IMG/VR virus record: IMGVR_UViG_3300033182_000371
Location: 1-64,000 of that record
Reading direction: 5' to 3' (one strand)
From: a virus
Length of the DNA stretch: 64,000 bases
Both the position numbers and the translations under genes were made by a program. Below, piece by piece: positions 2,575 to 54,100 of the stretch. How positions within the stretch are numbered: position 1 is the stretch's first letter; each line of letters starts with the position of its first letter. Below the pieces are notes generated by a model. It did not search any database. It worked only from the letters and a program-made list of their open reading frames with translations, and was not told the DNA's origin.

Positions 2575-3123
2575 TCATTCCTCTTCTTCGTCTTGGATTC
2601 CAAGATGTTCTTTGATACGCTTGTAGACATTCAAAGGAGTTGATTCTTCGTAAGGATCTCCCACAAGGTTGTGGCACATACCTTCTTCATCAAGCATCAG
2701 TTCGATCTCACCATCAACAACATATGCTGCATAACGCCAAGAACGATTGCCAAATCCAACATTAGTCTTCTTGACAAGCATACCAATGCCATCAGCAAGT
2801 TCAGCGTTCCCATCGGGAATCATCTCAACTTTCGTAATATCAAGAGACTTTGCCCATGCTTCCATTACATAATCGTCATTGACACTAGTGCAATAGATGG
2901 CATCAATCCCAAGATCTTTGACAAACTTGTCATAAAGATCTTCGTAGGCAGGAAGCATTTCATTCGTACAAGTAGGAGTGAATGCTCCAGGAAGACCGAA
3001 CAGAATTACTTTCTTTCCAGCAAAGTAATCTGCAGTATCAACGATTTGATACTTCTCCATTTCACCATTCTCATCAGGGACAGGAGATCCCTGAAGGTGG
3101 AATCTTGCATGGGGAATTCTCAT
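2575..3123 (-). CDS. Peroxiredoxin (AhpC/TSA, Prx5-like)
   Basis: Peroxiredoxins reduce hydrogen peroxide and organic peroxides through a peroxidatic cysteine. The signature is FGLPGAFTPTCTNEMLP, with the P-x3-T-x2-C arrangement and Cys near residue 51 of the 182-residue product (start MRIPHARFHLQG at 3123). The GAFTPTC form is typical of the one- or two-Cys Prx5 group. The C-terminus is acidic (DEEEE). It sits in an operon with two hli genes, ferredoxin and psbA, which fits protection against photo-oxidative stress during infection. An upstream in-frame extension overlaps the hli gene and is rejected as the start. Confidence 0.9.
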   Translation of the reverse strand: MRIPHARFHLQGSPVPDENGEMEKYQIVDTADYFAGKKVILFGLPGAFTPTCTNEMLPAYEDLYDKFVKDLGIDAIYCTSVNDDYVMEAWAKSLDITKVEMIPDGNAELADGIGMLVKKTNVGFGNRSWRYAAYVVDGEIELMLDEEGMCHNLVGDPYEESTPLNVYKRIKEHLGIQDEEEE

Positions 3124-3124
3124 A

Positions 3125-3244
3125 TCACCAAATGCCAGGAATGAGTTGACCAGTGGTGATGTAAGCACCAACGCCAGCAACAAAACCAATCATTGCCAGA
3201 CGAGCATTGAGGATCTCTGCCTCAGGAGTAAAAAGTTTTTTCAT
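3125..3244 (-). CDS. hli: High-light-inducible protein, 39 aa
   Basis: A 39-residue single-helix Hli/ELIP protein starts at ATG 3244 (MKKLFTPEAEILNARLAMIG). The chlorophyll-binding helix carries the expected AExLNxRLAMIGF pattern and ends TTGQLIPGIW. Hlips bind chlorophyll and carotenoids in thylakoids and dissipate excess light. Its TGA overlaps the peroxiredoxin start region (TGATATG). It is one of two hli genes in this operon; the other (4126-4329) is longer at its N-terminus. Confidence 0.93.
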   Translation of the reverse strand: MKKLFTPEAEILNARLAMIGFVAGVGAYITTGQLIPGIW

Positions 3245-3616: not shown

Positions 3617-3735
3617 TAGTTAGGAAAGTAAATCATTGAGAGTGTAAAGATAACAAAGATCATAACTGTGAAAATCATTAAACCTACGCCTGCCCAGGGA
3701 ACCCAGTCGGGCATAGGTTCATTATTGTGTTTCAC
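3616..3735 (-). CDS. Tiny membrane protein, 39 aa, GTG start
   Basis: A GTG at 3735-3733 overlaps the ferredoxin stop as GTGA, and the frame runs 39 codons to a TAA that shares a base with the next ATG. After a short hydrophilic N-terminus ([14 protein letters not shown]) the rest is one hydrophobic helix ([20 protein letters not shown]). It resembles the small single-helix subunits of photosynthetic complexes in size and layout, but I cannot match a named one. An internal ATG at the MPDWV methionine is an alternative start. Confidence 0.6.
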
Positions 3736-4025
3736 AAATTCTCTTCTTGTTCAGTCAGGATCACACAATCGCTGGTGGGATATGCGACACAGGTAAGCAC
3801 CCAACCTTCAGCGATTTGGTCATCGTCAAGGAAAGATTGCTCTTCGTTGTCTACGGTGCCAGAGATGAGTTTCCCTGCACAAGCCGAGCAAGCACCTGCT
3901 TTACACGACGAAGGGAGATCAACGCCTGCTTCTTCTGCTGCTTCAAGAATGTACTGATCATCGGGACATTCAATTTTGGTCTCGGTCCCATCAGGAGATT
4001 GGAGAGTGACGCTGTAGATAGTCAT
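3732..4025 (-). CDS. petF: Plant-type [2Fe-2S] ferredoxin
   Basis: This soluble electron carrier accepts electrons from photosystem I and passes them to reductases; phage ferredoxins may feed ribonucleotide reduction or bilin synthesis. The 97-residue product (start [13 protein letters not shown] at 4025) has the cluster motif CKAGACSAC near residue 41 and the fourth cysteine in WVLTCVAYP. The acidic C-terminus is typical. It is coupled upstream to a 28-residue membrane peptide (TAATG) and downstream to a 39-residue one (GTGA). In this operon it is the only soluble electron carrier, possibly for the flavoprotein at 1041-2141. Confidence 0.94.
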
Positions 4026-4111
4026 TAATAGGTTTCGCAAAGTTTTTCTACGGACGCTGCCAACAAAACAAAGAAGGCAACGCTAGTCATTGTAAACAAA
4101 ATTGAAGTCAT
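4025..4111 (-). CDS. Tiny membrane peptide, 28 aa
   Basis: A 28-codon frame ([20 protein letters not shown]...) begins at ATG 4111 and its TAA overlaps the ferredoxin ATG by one base. It is almost entirely one hydrophobic helix with a short charged tail (VEKLCETY). It follows the longer hli gene by 14 bases. In size and topology it resembles the single-helix small subunits of the cytochrome b6f complex or photosystems, but sequence identity cannot be claimed by eye. The start/stop coupling makes chance occurrence unlikely. Confidence 0.6.
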
Positions 4112-4125
4112 TGTCAAACCCTCTG

Positions 4126-4329
4126 TCAGAAAATGCCAAAAAAGAGTTTGCCAGTTGCGGCATAAGAAATGGCACCAAAGATGATACCCATCATTGCCCA
4201 GCGACCGTTGTACATCTCAGTCATTTCCATGGGGGTACGCAGTCCCTTACGGTGATACTCTTGGTACACCATCTCGGGCTCCTTTGCCCACATGTTTTGT
4301 TGTCCAAGTTCGTTAGTAGTTACGGTCAT
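4126..4329 (-). CDS. hli: High-light-inducible protein, 67 aa
   Basis: The C-terminal helix carries the Hli/CAB signature (EMYNGRWAMMGIIFGAISY, about residues 38-56), preceded by a hydrophilic N-terminus that mentions no signal peptide. It should bind chlorophyll in the thylakoid membrane and protect photosystem II together with phage D1. It is the first gene of the operon running to psbA. A perfect sigma70-type promoter (TTGACA, 17 bp, TATAAT) lies 26-54 bases upstream. Confidence 0.93.
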   Translation of the reverse strand: MTVTTNELGQQNMWAKEPEMVYQEYHRKGLRTPMEMTEMYNGRWAMMGIIFGAISYAATGKLFFGIF

Positions 4330-4354
4330 GATCTTTGTTAAGAAGTGTTACACA

Positions 4355-4383
4355 ATTATATAGGAAAAAGAAAGGGGTGTCAA
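4355..4383 (-). promoter_or_regulatory. Consensus sigma70 promoter of the photosynthesis operon
   Basis: On the minus strand TTGACA (4383-4378) is followed by exactly 17 bp and TATAAT (4360-4355), a perfect match to the bacterial housekeeping consensus. It drives hli and the genes down to psbA. The -35 box lies in the loop of the terminator hairpin at 4373-4391, so the two elements are physically fused. Confidence 0.85.
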
Positions 4384-4391
4384 GCACCCCT
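4373..4391 (-). terminator. Intrinsic terminator
   Basis: On the minus strand a 7-bp stem (AGGGGTG / CACCCCT, 5-base loop) is followed by TTCTTTTTCC. It ends transcription of the 62-residue gene at 4420-4608. The loop and the start of the descending arm spell TTGACA, the -35 box of the next promoter. Confidence 0.75.
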
Positions 4392-4419: not shown

Positions 4420-4608
4420 TTAATACTCAGTCTTATAGTCTGGATTTTTTCTCAGAAAATTTTTTACATAACCGTGTACATCCATCTCAATTTGGTGATG
4501 GGCATGAAGATGAATCAATTCAATAACAGAAAGACTTCCAATCAACACCAACAAGAGGTGACATATAGGGCTGCTGATACAGCAAGTCAGATTCTTTTTT
4601 ATGTTCAT
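4420..4608 (-). CDS. Small membrane protein, 62 aa
   Basis: The product (MNIKKNLTCCISSPICHLL...) has a short basic start, three cysteines, one hydrophobic segment (about residues 15-34) and a C-terminal region rich in histidines (HLHAHHQIEMDVH). The ATG at 4608 follows directly on the T-tract of the hairpin at 4609-4631, and no Shine-Dalgarno sequence is visible, so translation may be leaderless or start elsewhere. It is flanked by its own promoter-like element and terminator, so it seems to be a single-gene unit. No family recognised. Confidence 0.55.
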   Translation of the reverse strand: MNIKKNLTCCISSPICHLLLVLIGSLSVIELIHLHAHHQIEMDVHGYVKNFLRKNPDYKTEY

Positions 4609-19566: not shown

Positions 19567-20208
19567 TTATTTCACCACAGCGATGACAGGTTTGTAAAGC
19601 CAACCTGTCTTGCAGTAATTGCAGTGCTCAGGAACTTCAACCTCATAAGGTTTGAAACTCATGTCAAACTTTGTTTCAAGTTCCATATTACTTAACATAA
19701 CATAGAACCGATCAACATGTCCCTGCATTGGAGCACCTTGGGTAGAACAATAGAAAGAGAACTTTGCTTTCTCGTTCGAATGTTCACTGATACATGTTAC
19801 CATAAAATGAATGATATCGCAACCAGCGTATTGAAGAATCTCTGGTGTCATCCACTTCTCTTCAATGTAAGGATCATAAAAGAAGCAATCGTACTTTCCA
19901 AGATGATCCCTACAAGGCCATCCTTGATTGAGCACTGTAATGTTTTTATAATCCTTTGCCCATTCCAATGCTCTCGCATATGCAACAGGGTCTGGTTCTA
20001 GAACAGTATATGATTTGATGTCATGTTTCTGAAACTGGGTCGCAGAGTATCCCATACCAAAACCAACCTCTAGGATATCTCCGTAAGGTTCTAAGGCATC
20101 GACACATTCTTCCATATACTTCTTCTCCCATTCCATCATATATTGATGGTCTTCGGAAGTTCCGTAAAGAATATCTTCGTCGTTTATGTCTTTTGTGTAT
20201 TTTGCCAT
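19567..20208 (-). CDS. SAM-dependent methyltransferase
   Basis: The 213-residue product has motif I ILEVGFGMGYSATQF (about 45-59), an acidic post-I strand (SYTVLEPDPVAYA) and a motif-IV-like KYDCFFYDPYIEE near residue 105. The arrangement resembles small-molecule or arginine/guanidino methyltransferases. Near the C-terminus CNYCKTGW has a CxxC pair. It begins 25 bases inside the GIY-YIG gene and lies directly upstream of tRNA-Thr. Substrate unknown; RNA modification is a guess from position only. Confidence 0.8.
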   Translation of the reverse strand: MAKYTKDINDEDILYGTSEDHQYMMEWEKKYMEECVDALEPYGDILEVGFGMGYSATQFQKHDIKSYTVLEPDPVAYARALEWAKDYKNITVLNQGWPCRDHLGKYDCFFYDPYIEEKWMTPEILQYAGCDIIHFMVTCISEHSNEKAKFSFYCSTQGAPMQGHVDRFYVMLSNMELETKFDMSFKPYEVEVPEHCNYCKTGWLYKPVIAVVK

Positions 20209-20630
20209 GGGAAATAATCTTTTTTCATATACCTCCCAAGAATATTACTATTGTAATACTTTGGAGTTCCATCTTCTAAGGATTCAGTCAAAACATTATG
20301 AAGGAATAATTGCTTAGTCTCTTCGAAATTAACAAATCCTTTCGTCTTATGTAGGCTTAAAATTTCTCTCTTGAAATTAGAGTTCCCAAGCTCCTTTCTT
20401 TCTGCGCTAAGTTCATCAGAACTGCCATAGTATTTCTTCCAGTCACTTTCACTTCTAACTCTCCTAGTTTTGCCTCTAGGCTTTCGTAGCGACCAGAAGT
20501 ACTTTCTGCCAATGTAAATCCGACCAGAAATGAGATTAGTGATACGGTAGACAAACCCGTAGTAATCACCAATATCCTCACTACTGAACGGAGTACCTTC
20601 GTAAGTCCATGGGTTTTCATAATCAACCAT
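20184..20630 (-). CDS. GIY-YIG endonuclease-like protein
   Basis: The 148-residue protein has the GIY-YIG signature near its N-terminus: YGFVYRITNLISGRIYIGRK (24-43), where YGFVY replaces GIY and YIG is intact with the catalytic Arg following after the next helix. A basic linker (RKPRGKTRRVRSESDWKKYYG) and KREILSLHKT follow; a conserved Glu lies in FVNFEETKQLFL. T4-like phages carry such Seg-type homing nucleases near tRNA and variable regions. A terminator-fused promoter lies 50-80 bases upstream. Confidence 0.82.
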   Translation of the reverse strand: MVDYENPWTYEGTPFSSEDIGDYYGFVYRITNLISGRIYIGRKYFWSLRKPRGKTRRVRSESDWKKYYGSSDELSAERKELGNSNFKREILSLHKTKGFVNFEETKQLFLHNVLTESLEDGTPKYYNSNILGRYMKKDYFPWQNTQKT

Positions 20631-20681: not shown

Positions 20682-20710
20682 ATTCTACTCATAAAAAAGG
20701 AGGGTGTCAA
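20682..20710 (-). promoter_or_regulatory. Sigma70-type promoter for the GIY-YIG unit
   Basis: Minus-strand TTGACA (20710-20705), a 17-bp spacer and TAGAAT (20687-20682). The -35 box is in the loop and descending arm of the terminator at 20690-20717. It would drive the nuclease, the methyltransferase and the tRNA region. Confidence 0.7.
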
Positions 20711-20717
20711 GCCCTCC
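20690..20717 (-). terminator. Intrinsic terminator
   Basis: On the minus strand GGAGGG-CTTGACA-CCCTCC is followed by TTTTTTAT. It ends the transcript of the 577-residue gene, whose stop is nine bases upstream. The 7-base loop contains TTGACA. Confidence 0.82.
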
Positions 20718-41189: not shown

Positions 41190-41218
41190 AGTATAGCATG
41201 AAAAAGGGGGGTGATCAA
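41190..41218 (-). promoter_or_regulatory. Sigma70-type promoter for the gp43 operon
   Basis: Minus-strand TTGATC (41218-41213), 17 bp, TATACT (41195-41190). It lies 23 bases upstream of the Sm-like gene and would drive it, the 96-residue gene and gp43. The -35 box is in the loop of the hsp20 terminator. Confidence 0.65.
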
Positions 41219-41224
41219 CCCCCC
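41201..41224 (-). terminator. Intrinsic terminator after hsp20
   Basis: Minus-strand GGGGGG-TTGATCA-CCCCCC followed by TTTTTC. The stop of hsp20 is five bases upstream. The loop contains the TTGATC -35 box of the following promoter. Confidence 0.82.
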
Positions 41225-41229
41225 GATAT

Positions 41230-41664
41230 TTAGAACCAGTCCTTACGGTGGTGGTGCTCTGGAATAATTTTTCCCAAAGTCACTGTCAATAGTCCATCCT
41301 CAAATGTCACATCCCTTACCTCCGTCTCATCAGAGAGCGTCCAAACCCTCGTAAAGGATCTCTGCGCCAATCCTTTATGCAAGTAGTCTGTAGCGGTCTC
41401 CTTGTCCTCCTTCTGCCCCTCTACGAAGAGTTTACCAGACTCCGTATAGACAAATACCTCTGCCTTCTTAAATCCTGCTAAGGCGAGCTCCAGCTTACAT
41501 TCTGTGTTGCTGATATTGATGAGGTTATATGGGGGATAATTGGAAGTTGTTTCGTGTAGTTTGAAGATACGATCAAAGTAATCATCCATTCCAATGCTAT
41601 TGCGGGTAATTTTGTCCAGCAAAGCAGGCAAATCCGCAGCATGATACCTTGTAAGGTTAGTCAT
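41230..41664 (-). CDS. hsp20: Small heat-shock protein (Hsp20)
   Basis: The 144-residue protein has an alpha-crystallin domain: YNLINISNTECKLELALAGF as the first strands, and FEDGLLTVTLGK (about 122-133) as the GxLxVxL signature. It is a holdase chaperone that binds unfolding proteins and is common in marine T4-like phages. A good ribosome-binding site (AAGGAG) precedes the ATG, and a -10-like TATAAT is at 41730-41725. It is transcribed as a single gene between two terminators. Confidence 0.93.
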   Translation of the reverse strand: MTNLTRYHAADLPALLDKITRNSIGMDDYFDRIFKLHETTSNYPPYNLINISNTECKLELALAGFKKAEVFVYTESGKLFVEGQKEDKETATDYLHKGLAQRSFTRVWTLSDETEVRDVTFEDGLLTVTLGKIIPEHHHRKDWF

Positions 41665-51979: not shown

Positions 51980-54100
51980 TCAGGCGACCAACGCAATGAA
52001 CTCGTTCAACACACGCTTGTTCATTTTCTTATTCGCTAGAGACTTCCTAAAAGCACTCTTAATTTGAGACTTAGATGCATCATCAGATACTTCAAATTCA
52101 GAACTTTGAGAAAGAACTTGATTGCCAAGAACAATGTAAGAATTATATCCATAATCCTTAATGGTGAAGGATTTTTCTTTCTTCCATTGAGTACGAGCTT
52201 TCTCTTGATCCAAGTACTCAGGAATATAAGAGTAGATCATAGAGTTGTAACTACATCCAGGTCCAATGATACGGAACCCAACAAAGTTAACTTCGGAAAA
52301 TGTTGACTTAAGATCATCAAGGAGTGCTTTGGTGAAAAGGTGATAGATCATTGACAGACGAGTAATTTCTCCAGTCTTGTGATTACGCAAGAAAGTTTGA
52401 TCAGTACACCGACGATTACGAATCTGTGCTTCTCCTTCCCAGTTACGCTGAAGCATTACAGTACGAGAAAGTGGAGATGCTTCACCATCAGTCAAAATAA
52501 CACAATTAACCTTTTCAAGACCATGCATTTTCTTGAAACTAGGAATAATTTTATGAAGAGTTAGCAGTGCTTCATTCAAAGGAGTGCCAGAAAGATACAT
52601 CCGAGGAGGACAAACCCCAGAATAATCAGTGAATGAATGTGCAATATTCCAAATGTTCTTCATTTGCTGTTCAGCAACAGCATTACTCACCTTACTAGTG
52701 AGAATATTCATCATAGAAAAAGAATCTCCAATATGAAATTTGTCTTCCTCAAGAGGAAGAGTGGGAAATTCCTTTGCCCTGTAATTCCACTCATTAGTGA
52801 AAGCAAATACATCATATGGAATACCAACCTTCCTACAGAACCAGATCAAGTTATACAGTTGCTTGAGAGTAGAGACAAGAACATCCGCCATAGATCCAGA
52901 CCAGTCAAGCACAAATACCAGACCATGATTCTTGCCGTCAGGAATGACGGTTACTTTTTTGAAGAGGTCTTCATTGTACTTGTAGGTATGAAGTTTGGAA
53001 CAGTCAAGAACACCAGTGCGAGAAGTAGTAGCACGAGCATATGCAGCAGCAGACTTCTTACATTCAAATTCTTTCACAAGATAGTTGACTTCTTTTGCAG
53101 ATTCTTTTTTGAACTTGACATAGTTGTCATGATGAATCCCAGCAAGACGCTCAATAAATTCCAGAGACCGTCCCCTCCACTCATCCCAAACAGATTCAAT
53201 ATACTCATGAATCTCTTTGGTGGGAATAATAATATGCTCCATATCCATGCTAGGAATAGAAACATATGAAATGAAGTTGTCACTAGTATCAGCAAGTTCA
53301 CGCAACTTATCTGCTAGTGAGTCAACAGTTTTAGTTTCATTCTCATTGACAGCAGTGTTGTTTTCTTCTGAAAGGTTACCGTCCTCTTCAGACTCAGATT
53401 CTTCTGACTTGTCCTCTCCTTCACCACTGTCCTCAGAATCGCCAGCAGGAGTCTCCTGCTGCTGAGGCATTGATTGCATACCCTCTCCACCATCAGAACC
53501 CGTTGCAGACGATTGTGGTGGGGTGACAGGTTCGGTTTCAGACGAAGTAAACTCATCAGCATACTCACTAATCATACGAGCAGCATCTAGAGCATCATCA
53601 AAGGACTCTGCATTGGCAACTGCATTAATGATTTGCATTTCCCTGTCGTTCTTAACAGGGACTTTGATGTAATTACCAATCTTGAACCAGAGATTTACGC
53701 GATCAGCGAAAGAGAACTTGTTAAGATCTTCTCCCTCCAGTTCAAAGAAATCTTGATCTTGGAGATTGGAGTACCCACGATAGAAAGTTTTGCTCAGACC
53801 AGCATAACGACGCTTGATCAATTTCTCAATGCGAGCATCCTCAGTGATGTTCACAAAGTTTTGAGGAACATTCTTCCACTTCTCTTCTTTATCCCAAGGA
53901 CGAGGGTCAGTGAACAATGCATGACCAACCTCATGTGCAACGAGGAGATCATACACATCCTCAGAGGAGATCTTCCAAACAGGGAGAGTCAGGACACGAC
54001 GAACGACATCAAACTGAGCGGTCTCTACATTGCGGTGCTCGATGATCAGGTTCTCAGTAGCGAGCAGTTTAGCAAGTTTGCCTTTGACTTCGTGCAGCAT
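51980..54100 (-). CDS. VWA-domain protein with HEVGH metallopeptidase motif (CobT-like)
   Basis: The 706-residue protein has VAHEVGHALFTDPRPW near residue 55, a zinc-peptidase HExxH-like motif, an acidic low-complexity middle (EDSGEGEDKSEESESEEDG) like CobT, and a C-terminal VWA domain with the MIDAS sequence LVFVLDWSGSMADV near 390 and a later CVILTDGEASPLS. The architecture matches CobT-type partners of CobS/MoxR ATPases. Together they may form a chaperone-like machine acting on metal enzymes or virion proteins. Activity is inferred. Confidence 0.85.
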   Translation of the reverse strand: MLHEVKGKLAKLLATENLIIEHRNVETAQFDVVRRVLTLPVWKISSEDVYDLLVAHEVGHALFTDPRPWDKEEKWKNVPQNFVNITEDARIEKLIKRRYAGLSKTFYRGYSNLQDQDFFELEGEDLNKFSFADRVNLWFKIGNYIKVPVKNDREMQIINAVANAESFDDALDAARMISEYADEFTSSETEPVTPPQSSATGSDGGEGMQSMPQQQETPAGDSEDSGEGEDKSEESESEEDGNLSEENNTAVNENETKTVDSLADKLRELADTSDNFISYVSIPSMDMEHIIIPTKEIHEYIESVWDEWRGRSLEFIERLAGIHHDNYVKFKKESAKEVNYLVKEFECKKSAAAYARATTSRTGVLDCSKLHTYKYNEDLFKKVTVIPDGKNHGLVFVLDWSGSMADVLVSTLKQLYNLIWFCRKVGIPYDVFAFTNEWNYRAKEFPTLPLEEDKFHIGDSFSMMNILTSKVSNAVAEQQMKNIWNIAHSFTDYSGVCPPRMYLSGTPLNEALLTLHKIIPSFKKMHGLEKVNCVILTDGEASPLSRTVMLQRNWEGEAQIRNRRCTDQTFLRNHKTGEITRLSMIYHLFTKALLDDLKSTFSEVNFVGFRIIGPGCSYNSMIYSYIPEYLDQEKARTQWKKEKSFTIKDYGYNSYIVLGNQVLSQSSEFEVSDDASKSQIKSAFRKSLANKKMNKRVLNEFIALVA

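Follow-up and report, generated by a model that had tools for sequence, protein, structure and literature searches.

The DNA directly upstream of the high light inducible gene hli in a T4-like cyanophage carries a terminator-like hairpin whose loop and 3' arm also spell the -35 box of a sigma70-type promoter. We put the probability at roughly 0.83 that it acts as a compact nested terminator and promoter, which would insulate the operon from the gene before it and restart transcription in less than 40 bp. This reading, already proposed in a preliminary description of the sequence, is the best-fitting one and is supported by comparison: the promoter is conserved among relatives, the stem covaries, the hairpin is linked to a T-tract and to the orientation of the upstream gene, and the same geometry is enriched genome-wide.

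The hli element and its sisters

The window, a stretch of 64,000 nucleotides, is part of a 74,029-base IMG/VR virus record (IMGVR_UViG_3300033182_000371), and its genes lie mostly on the minus strand. Since they include a T4-type major head protein, a phage translation repressor and tRNAs, we assign the contig to the T4-like cyanophages. On the minus strand the hli element reads AGGGGTG[CTTGA]CACCCCT-TTCTTTTTCCTA-TATAAT. The terminator-like hairpin with its 7-bp stem (4373-4391) is followed by a T-tract (TTCTTTTTC, 4364-4372) that doubles as part of the promoter spacer. The -35 box TTGACA (4378-4383) is made up of the loop and the first bases of the 3' arm, and the -10 box TATAAT (4355-4360), an exact sequence match, lies 17 bases away. 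All these parts, as well as the perfect sigma70 consensus, had been pointed out in the preliminary description and are confirmed here. With exact TTGACA-17-TATAAT the element falls among sigma70-type promoters as defined by near-consensus hexamers and a spacer within 16-18, and TTGACA-N15-19-TATAAT has two matches in the 74-kb record, of which the hli copy is the sole one with a spacer of 17. It also has the sequence features of an intrinsic terminator, a stable G/C hairpin with a U-tract directly after it, as judged from the predicted RNA fold (-11.3 kcal/mol, z = -3.0; -11.2 and -14.5 kcal/mol for the two sister hairpins described below).

The element is flanked by co-directional genes on the minus strand. 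Upstream, a small gene (4420-4608, PHROG 2587) ends 28 bases before the hairpin. The operon after the element consists, according to Pfam and PHROG, of hli (4126-4329; PHROG 178, E 1.8e-27), a petF-type 2Fe-2S ferredoxin gene (3732-4040; Pfam PF00111, PHROG 844), an unknown gene, a peroxiredoxin gene (2575-3189; Pfam and PHROG matches) and a tryptophan-halogenase-like gene. The earlier label of a photosynthesis operon is loose: genes for photoprotection and electron transfer (hli, ferredoxin) are there, but psbA is not among the window genes. The order hli, ferredoxin is common to many Kyanoviridae, and in some of them peroxiredoxin or a second hli comes next. Nested elements mark the edges of photoprotection and electron-transfer genes in widespread aquatic viruses. 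When host genomes were searched for relatives of the window Hli, with the question in mind of whether the promoter had been acquired with the gene, none was confirmed. By eye, the hli leader (window 4354-4330, minus strand) and those of many relatives contain a conserved TGTAA...TTACA-like inverted repeat around the predicted start.

Two sister elements on the minus strand had been described as recurrences of the design. The second (20682-20717), GGAGGG[CTTGACA]CCCTCC-TTTTTT with a T6 and the -10 TAGAAT at spacer 17, is found 5' of a SegE-like GIY-YIG gene (20184-20630). The third (41190-41224), GGGGGGT[TGATC]ACCCCCC-TTTTT with a T5, the -35 TTGATC and the extended -10 TGCTATACT at spacer 17, lies between an Hsp20 gene (41230-41664) and a PHROG 431 gene. 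The nesting and the 17-bp geometry do recur, in elements 35-37 bp long; however, both sisters have weaker boxes (TAGAAT; TTGATC), and only the hli copy is a perfect consensus promoter. The three copies are mutually just 38-41% alike. Among relatives of segE the nested element is kept in about 8 of 73 distinct regions, as counted by eye, with other stems, and at the PHROG 431 locus hairpin and -10 are conserved while the -35 is weak. The covariation evidence therefore comes mostly from the hli locus. As an aside, Pfam identifies the product of 20184-20630 (minus strand) as a SegE-like GIY-YIG endonuclease and PHROG 447 as an NAD synthetase; the PHROG name looks wrong.

Conservation and covariation at the hli locus

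At least 119 IMG/VR stretches contain the element in its hli form, and among 112 distinct sites taken from the matches listed for two patterns, at least 98 precede hli. The comparison drew on IMG/VR and named phages and retained 68 distinct sequences upstream of hli. Their promoter hardly varies: TTGACN at spacer 17 occurs in 68/68, a figure that reflects how they were selected, namely for that spacer and for a -35 close to consensus. Among 64 distinct hli regions from IMG/VR, a single one lacks such a -35 and four have a spacer of 18. The preliminary description had made its case depend on presence in related phages, which applies to some of them: the hairpin is found in 33 of the 68 regions, whereas the other 35 have the promoter without it.

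Where the hairpin is present, its stem covaries. In the commonest register (21 sequences) 100% of the stem cells are paired, compared to 87% after shuffling, and none of 500 shuffles matches this value. Compensatory changes are seen at three of the six pairs, and the signal is lost when the partner is shifted by 1-3 columns. The resulting stems, GGGGTG/CACCCC, GAGGGG/CCCCTC, GGGGAG/CTCCCC and GGGAGG/CCTCCC, surround an invariant TTGA. Because the two arms of the stem change together and TTGAC does not change, the pattern points to selection for both the terminator and the promoter function.

Moreover, in Fisher tests that ignore shared ancestry, the hairpin goes together with a T5 in the spacer (30/33 regions with hairpin versus 3/35 without, p = 2e-12), with an upstream gene that runs in the same direction (29:3 against 13:20, p = 2e-5, orientation being called by a simple open-frame rule within at most 600 bases of flank) and with a -10 of exactly TATAAT (27/33 versus 7/35, p = 5.5e-7). 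Among named phages, S-RIM32, S-H9-2, S-CAM3, S-PM2 and S-BM3 have a co-directional upstream gene and the hairpin, and S-WAM2, S-H9-1 and S-RSM4 have a divergent upstream gene and no hairpin. DSL-LC03 is a counter-example, since its upstream gene is co-directional, yet the hairpin is missing. Some of the 13 hairpin-less relatives with a co-directional upstream gene may rely on a different terminator or on read-through. A run of at least four G directly before TTGAC persists, by eye, in many hairpin-less hli promoters (e.g., L281, L295 and DSL-LC03); it may be a part of the 5' arm that has another role, or a remnant.

The sixth base of the -35 is an A in only 17/33 regions with hairpin, compared to 33/35 without. 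In the hairpin copies this base drifts from A because the stem dictates it, and the -10 is stronger in these copies, as if to compensate for the lost sixth base. The locus is therefore a concrete case of two opposite transcription signals on the same bases, in which the trade-off can be traced in the sixth -35 base and the strength of the -10.

In the mechanism that we infer for the hli element, including termination itself, the start site, the sigma factor used and the timing, a polymerase that has transcribed the co-directional gene upstream would form the G/C hairpin and the U-tract and halt. The same DNA would provide the -35 in the loop and the first bases of the 3' arm, the spacer in the T-tract, and the -10, from which host RNA polymerase carrying the main sigma factor would initiate the hli-ferredoxin operon at a start predicted near 4348. 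Since the new transcript would begin beyond the hairpin, it would carry no terminator and would not itself be terminated. The terminator would be required only if transcription arrives from upstream, the promoter always. Many cyanobacteria are believed to be without Rho, and in its absence intrinsic terminators would weigh more for insulation. Finally, because auxiliary metabolic gene expression in Prochlorococcus phage P-HM2 is confined to the middle cluster (PMC5082946), the hli promoter may by analogy be a middle promoter.

Nested signals in cyanophages compared with coliphages

A search of cyanophage genomes for the nested geometry had been suggested as a check. Our survey covered 16 genomes or contigs of cyanophages, among them the record that contains the window, together with the coliphages RB49, phi1 and T4, using one terminator definition throughout. 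Counting terminators with at least six T in eight gave 246 in the cyanophages and 100 in the three coliphages. Allowing up to two mismatches, a -35 that starts within the eight bases before the 3' arm (-7 to -4) accompanies 19/246 cyanophage terminators, while all other offsets average about 0.19 promoters each. Under a looser rule a sigma70 promoter is nested in 26/246 terminators across the 16 genomes, at about 15 separate loci, versus 3.7 in shifted controls. The suggestion that the design is selected and not accidental is thus supported by this enrichment, by the hli stem covariation and by the links to T-tract and orientation. In RB49, phi1 and T4, 0/100 terminators have a -35 nested in the hairpin, and in RB49 and phi1 the -35 is mostly found 22-40 bases past the first base of the 3' arm, with the promoter following the terminator. 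Nesting is found in viruses of marine and of freshwater cyanobacteria, whereas the three E. coli phages mostly place the two signals side by side. It would explain how separately expressed gene blocks are fitted into the very short gaps of cyanophage genomes.

Taking all terminators together, a 2x2 comparison showed no significant association between TTGA in the loop and a -10 at any distance downstream (15, 8, 105, 118; p = 0.13). Because many terminators are followed by -10-like sites for unrelated reasons, it is the register-specific test that is informative. An iterated position-weight scan drifted to plain terminators and yielded leads only. When sigma70 promoters and four further promoter types are taken together, a promoter lies within or abuts 78/246 cyanophage terminators, about a third (6.9 expected), compared to 10/100 in the coliphages (3.4 expected). 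That nesting of sigma70, upstream-dyad, extended -10 and T4-late TATAAAT promoters is general to T4-like cyanophages, and that polymerase is moreover handed over directly at some of these sites, is a combined claim we regard as doubtful.

Several further features were seen in the survey. One promoter class has an upstream dyad like GACAGTTnnnnAACTGkCACA and is represented by 167 sites in the 16 cyanophage genomes; the dyad begins 50 +/- 1 bases before the -10 (180 matches at 49-51 versus about 13 per offset). We take this class to be possibly the early element described for Syn9 by Doron et al. 2016. An example in the window (54178-54123, minus strand) reads GACACTTTAAAAAGTGTCACA, hairpin, TTTTATAAT, and is followed by the gene 51980-54100. 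A T-tract running into the T4-type late promoter TATAAAT is seen in 22/246 cyanophage terminators (0.2 expected), for example at S-RIM32 151522 and S-H9-2 89518, and in 6/100 of those in RB49, phi1 and T4. Extended -10 boxes (TGnTATAAT) just 5' of a terminator hairpin occur at window 4643-4606 (minus strand), where the T-tract directly abuts the ATG of gene 4608-4420, and at 13 other sites. A transcript from such a box would begin within the 5' arm and escape the terminator.

Alternative readings and related systems

The overlap could serve termination-coupled reinitiation, placing the released polymerase on the promoter for recycling, or else occlusion or a roadblock. Judging from the geometry, a polymerase halted in the T-tract would cover the region from the -35 to the start site. 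Moreover, after stopping at an intrinsic terminator in vitro, E. coli RNA polymerase mostly remains bound to the DNA and is able to start again from a promoter further downstream, with an efficiency said to depend on the distance between terminator and promoter (PMC6978380, PMC6978322). By this analogy recycling or occlusion at the hli element, as raised in the preliminary description, is plausible, and natural terminator-promoter parts as short as these lend themselves to testing post-termination recycling. However, the reach of recycling has been estimated at up to about 1000 bp (PMC11347151), which makes an overlap unnecessary for it, about half of the hli relatives keep the promoter without the hairpin, and compaction alone can explain the overlap. 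We therefore consider it unlikely that reinitiation or occlusion is what the overlap is for.

The closest known systems are the PeSL (promoter-early stem-loop) cassettes, reportedly described by Arbiol et al. 2010 and Comeau et al. 2014 in T4-type coliphages such as RB49 and phi1. As in these, a terminator stem-loop and a sigma70-type promoter share one small intergenic cassette between co-directional genes. In RB49 and phi1, however, the promoter follows the terminator (+22 to +40), whereas the cyanophage -35 is nested at -7 to -4. The hli element lacks this tandem layout, which is not known as a published defining feature of PeSLs; its occurrence in the scanned RB49 and phi1 genomes fits what is known of the cassettes. 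Could the hli element persist mainly because a shared terminator/promoter sequence permits module swapping, as in a PeSL-like recombination cassette? Its upstream neighbours do vary (glucosyltransferase, pstS, tRNA-Pro, GC355, DUF680-type and divergent genes), while hli and often ferredoxin are constant. Yet window copies that are so little alike offer little homology, and in S-PM2, where PeSLs were weighed, their density was found insufficient for gene gain (PMC4503421). We think it improbable that this is the main reason for its persistence.

We set aside the idea that the inverted repeat acts in DNA, as a protein-binding palindrome or as an extruded hairpin like those of phage N4 promoters, and is not a terminator. 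G/C stems do occur in 38/167 of the upstream-dyad promoters (3.9 expected), of which just 32/167 have a T5. At hli, though, the bases of the stem differ between relatives but still pair, which speaks against a protein site, and the hairpin tracks the T-tract and the orientation of the upstream gene, needs that are specific to a terminator. N4-type promoters are DNA hairpins recognised by the virion RNA polymerase; the hli stem covariation and T-tract link point to RNA instead, so that action in DNA seems very unlikely. We also set aside the possibility that an ordinary terminator and promoter have come to overlap by chance. Gaps between cyanophage genes are short and both kinds of signal occur often, but coincidence is contradicted by the excess over shifted controls, the fixed register, the covariation and the three copies in the window, and can hardly be the explanation.

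Returning to the nested terminator and promoter, other systems resemble it in part. Host-like sigma70 promoters have been reported for the T4-like cyanophages S-PM2 and Syn9 (reviewed in PMC2984593); like the hli promoter they are TTGACA/TATAAT-like, lie 5' of phage genes and are presumably served by the host polymerase in its unmodified form, but the descriptions examined include no overlap of a -35 with a terminator hairpin. Synthetic bifunctional terminator-promoter elements in yeast (PMC10298055) likewise end one gene and start the next with a single fused element, but are engineered, eukaryotic and built on another sequence logic. A narrow literature search, with the original PeSL and Syn9 transcriptome papers outside its scope, brought up no account of a -35 placed within the loop of a terminator, and we therefore call the nested layout a new form of the known terminator/promoter cassettes. 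With intrinsic terminators in general the nested elements share the G/C stem, the short loop and the U-tract, with predicted folds of -11 to -15 kcal/mol. They differ in the loop itself, which is TTGA instead of the TTCG or GAAA common in other cyanophage terminators, because it doubles as the -35 box.
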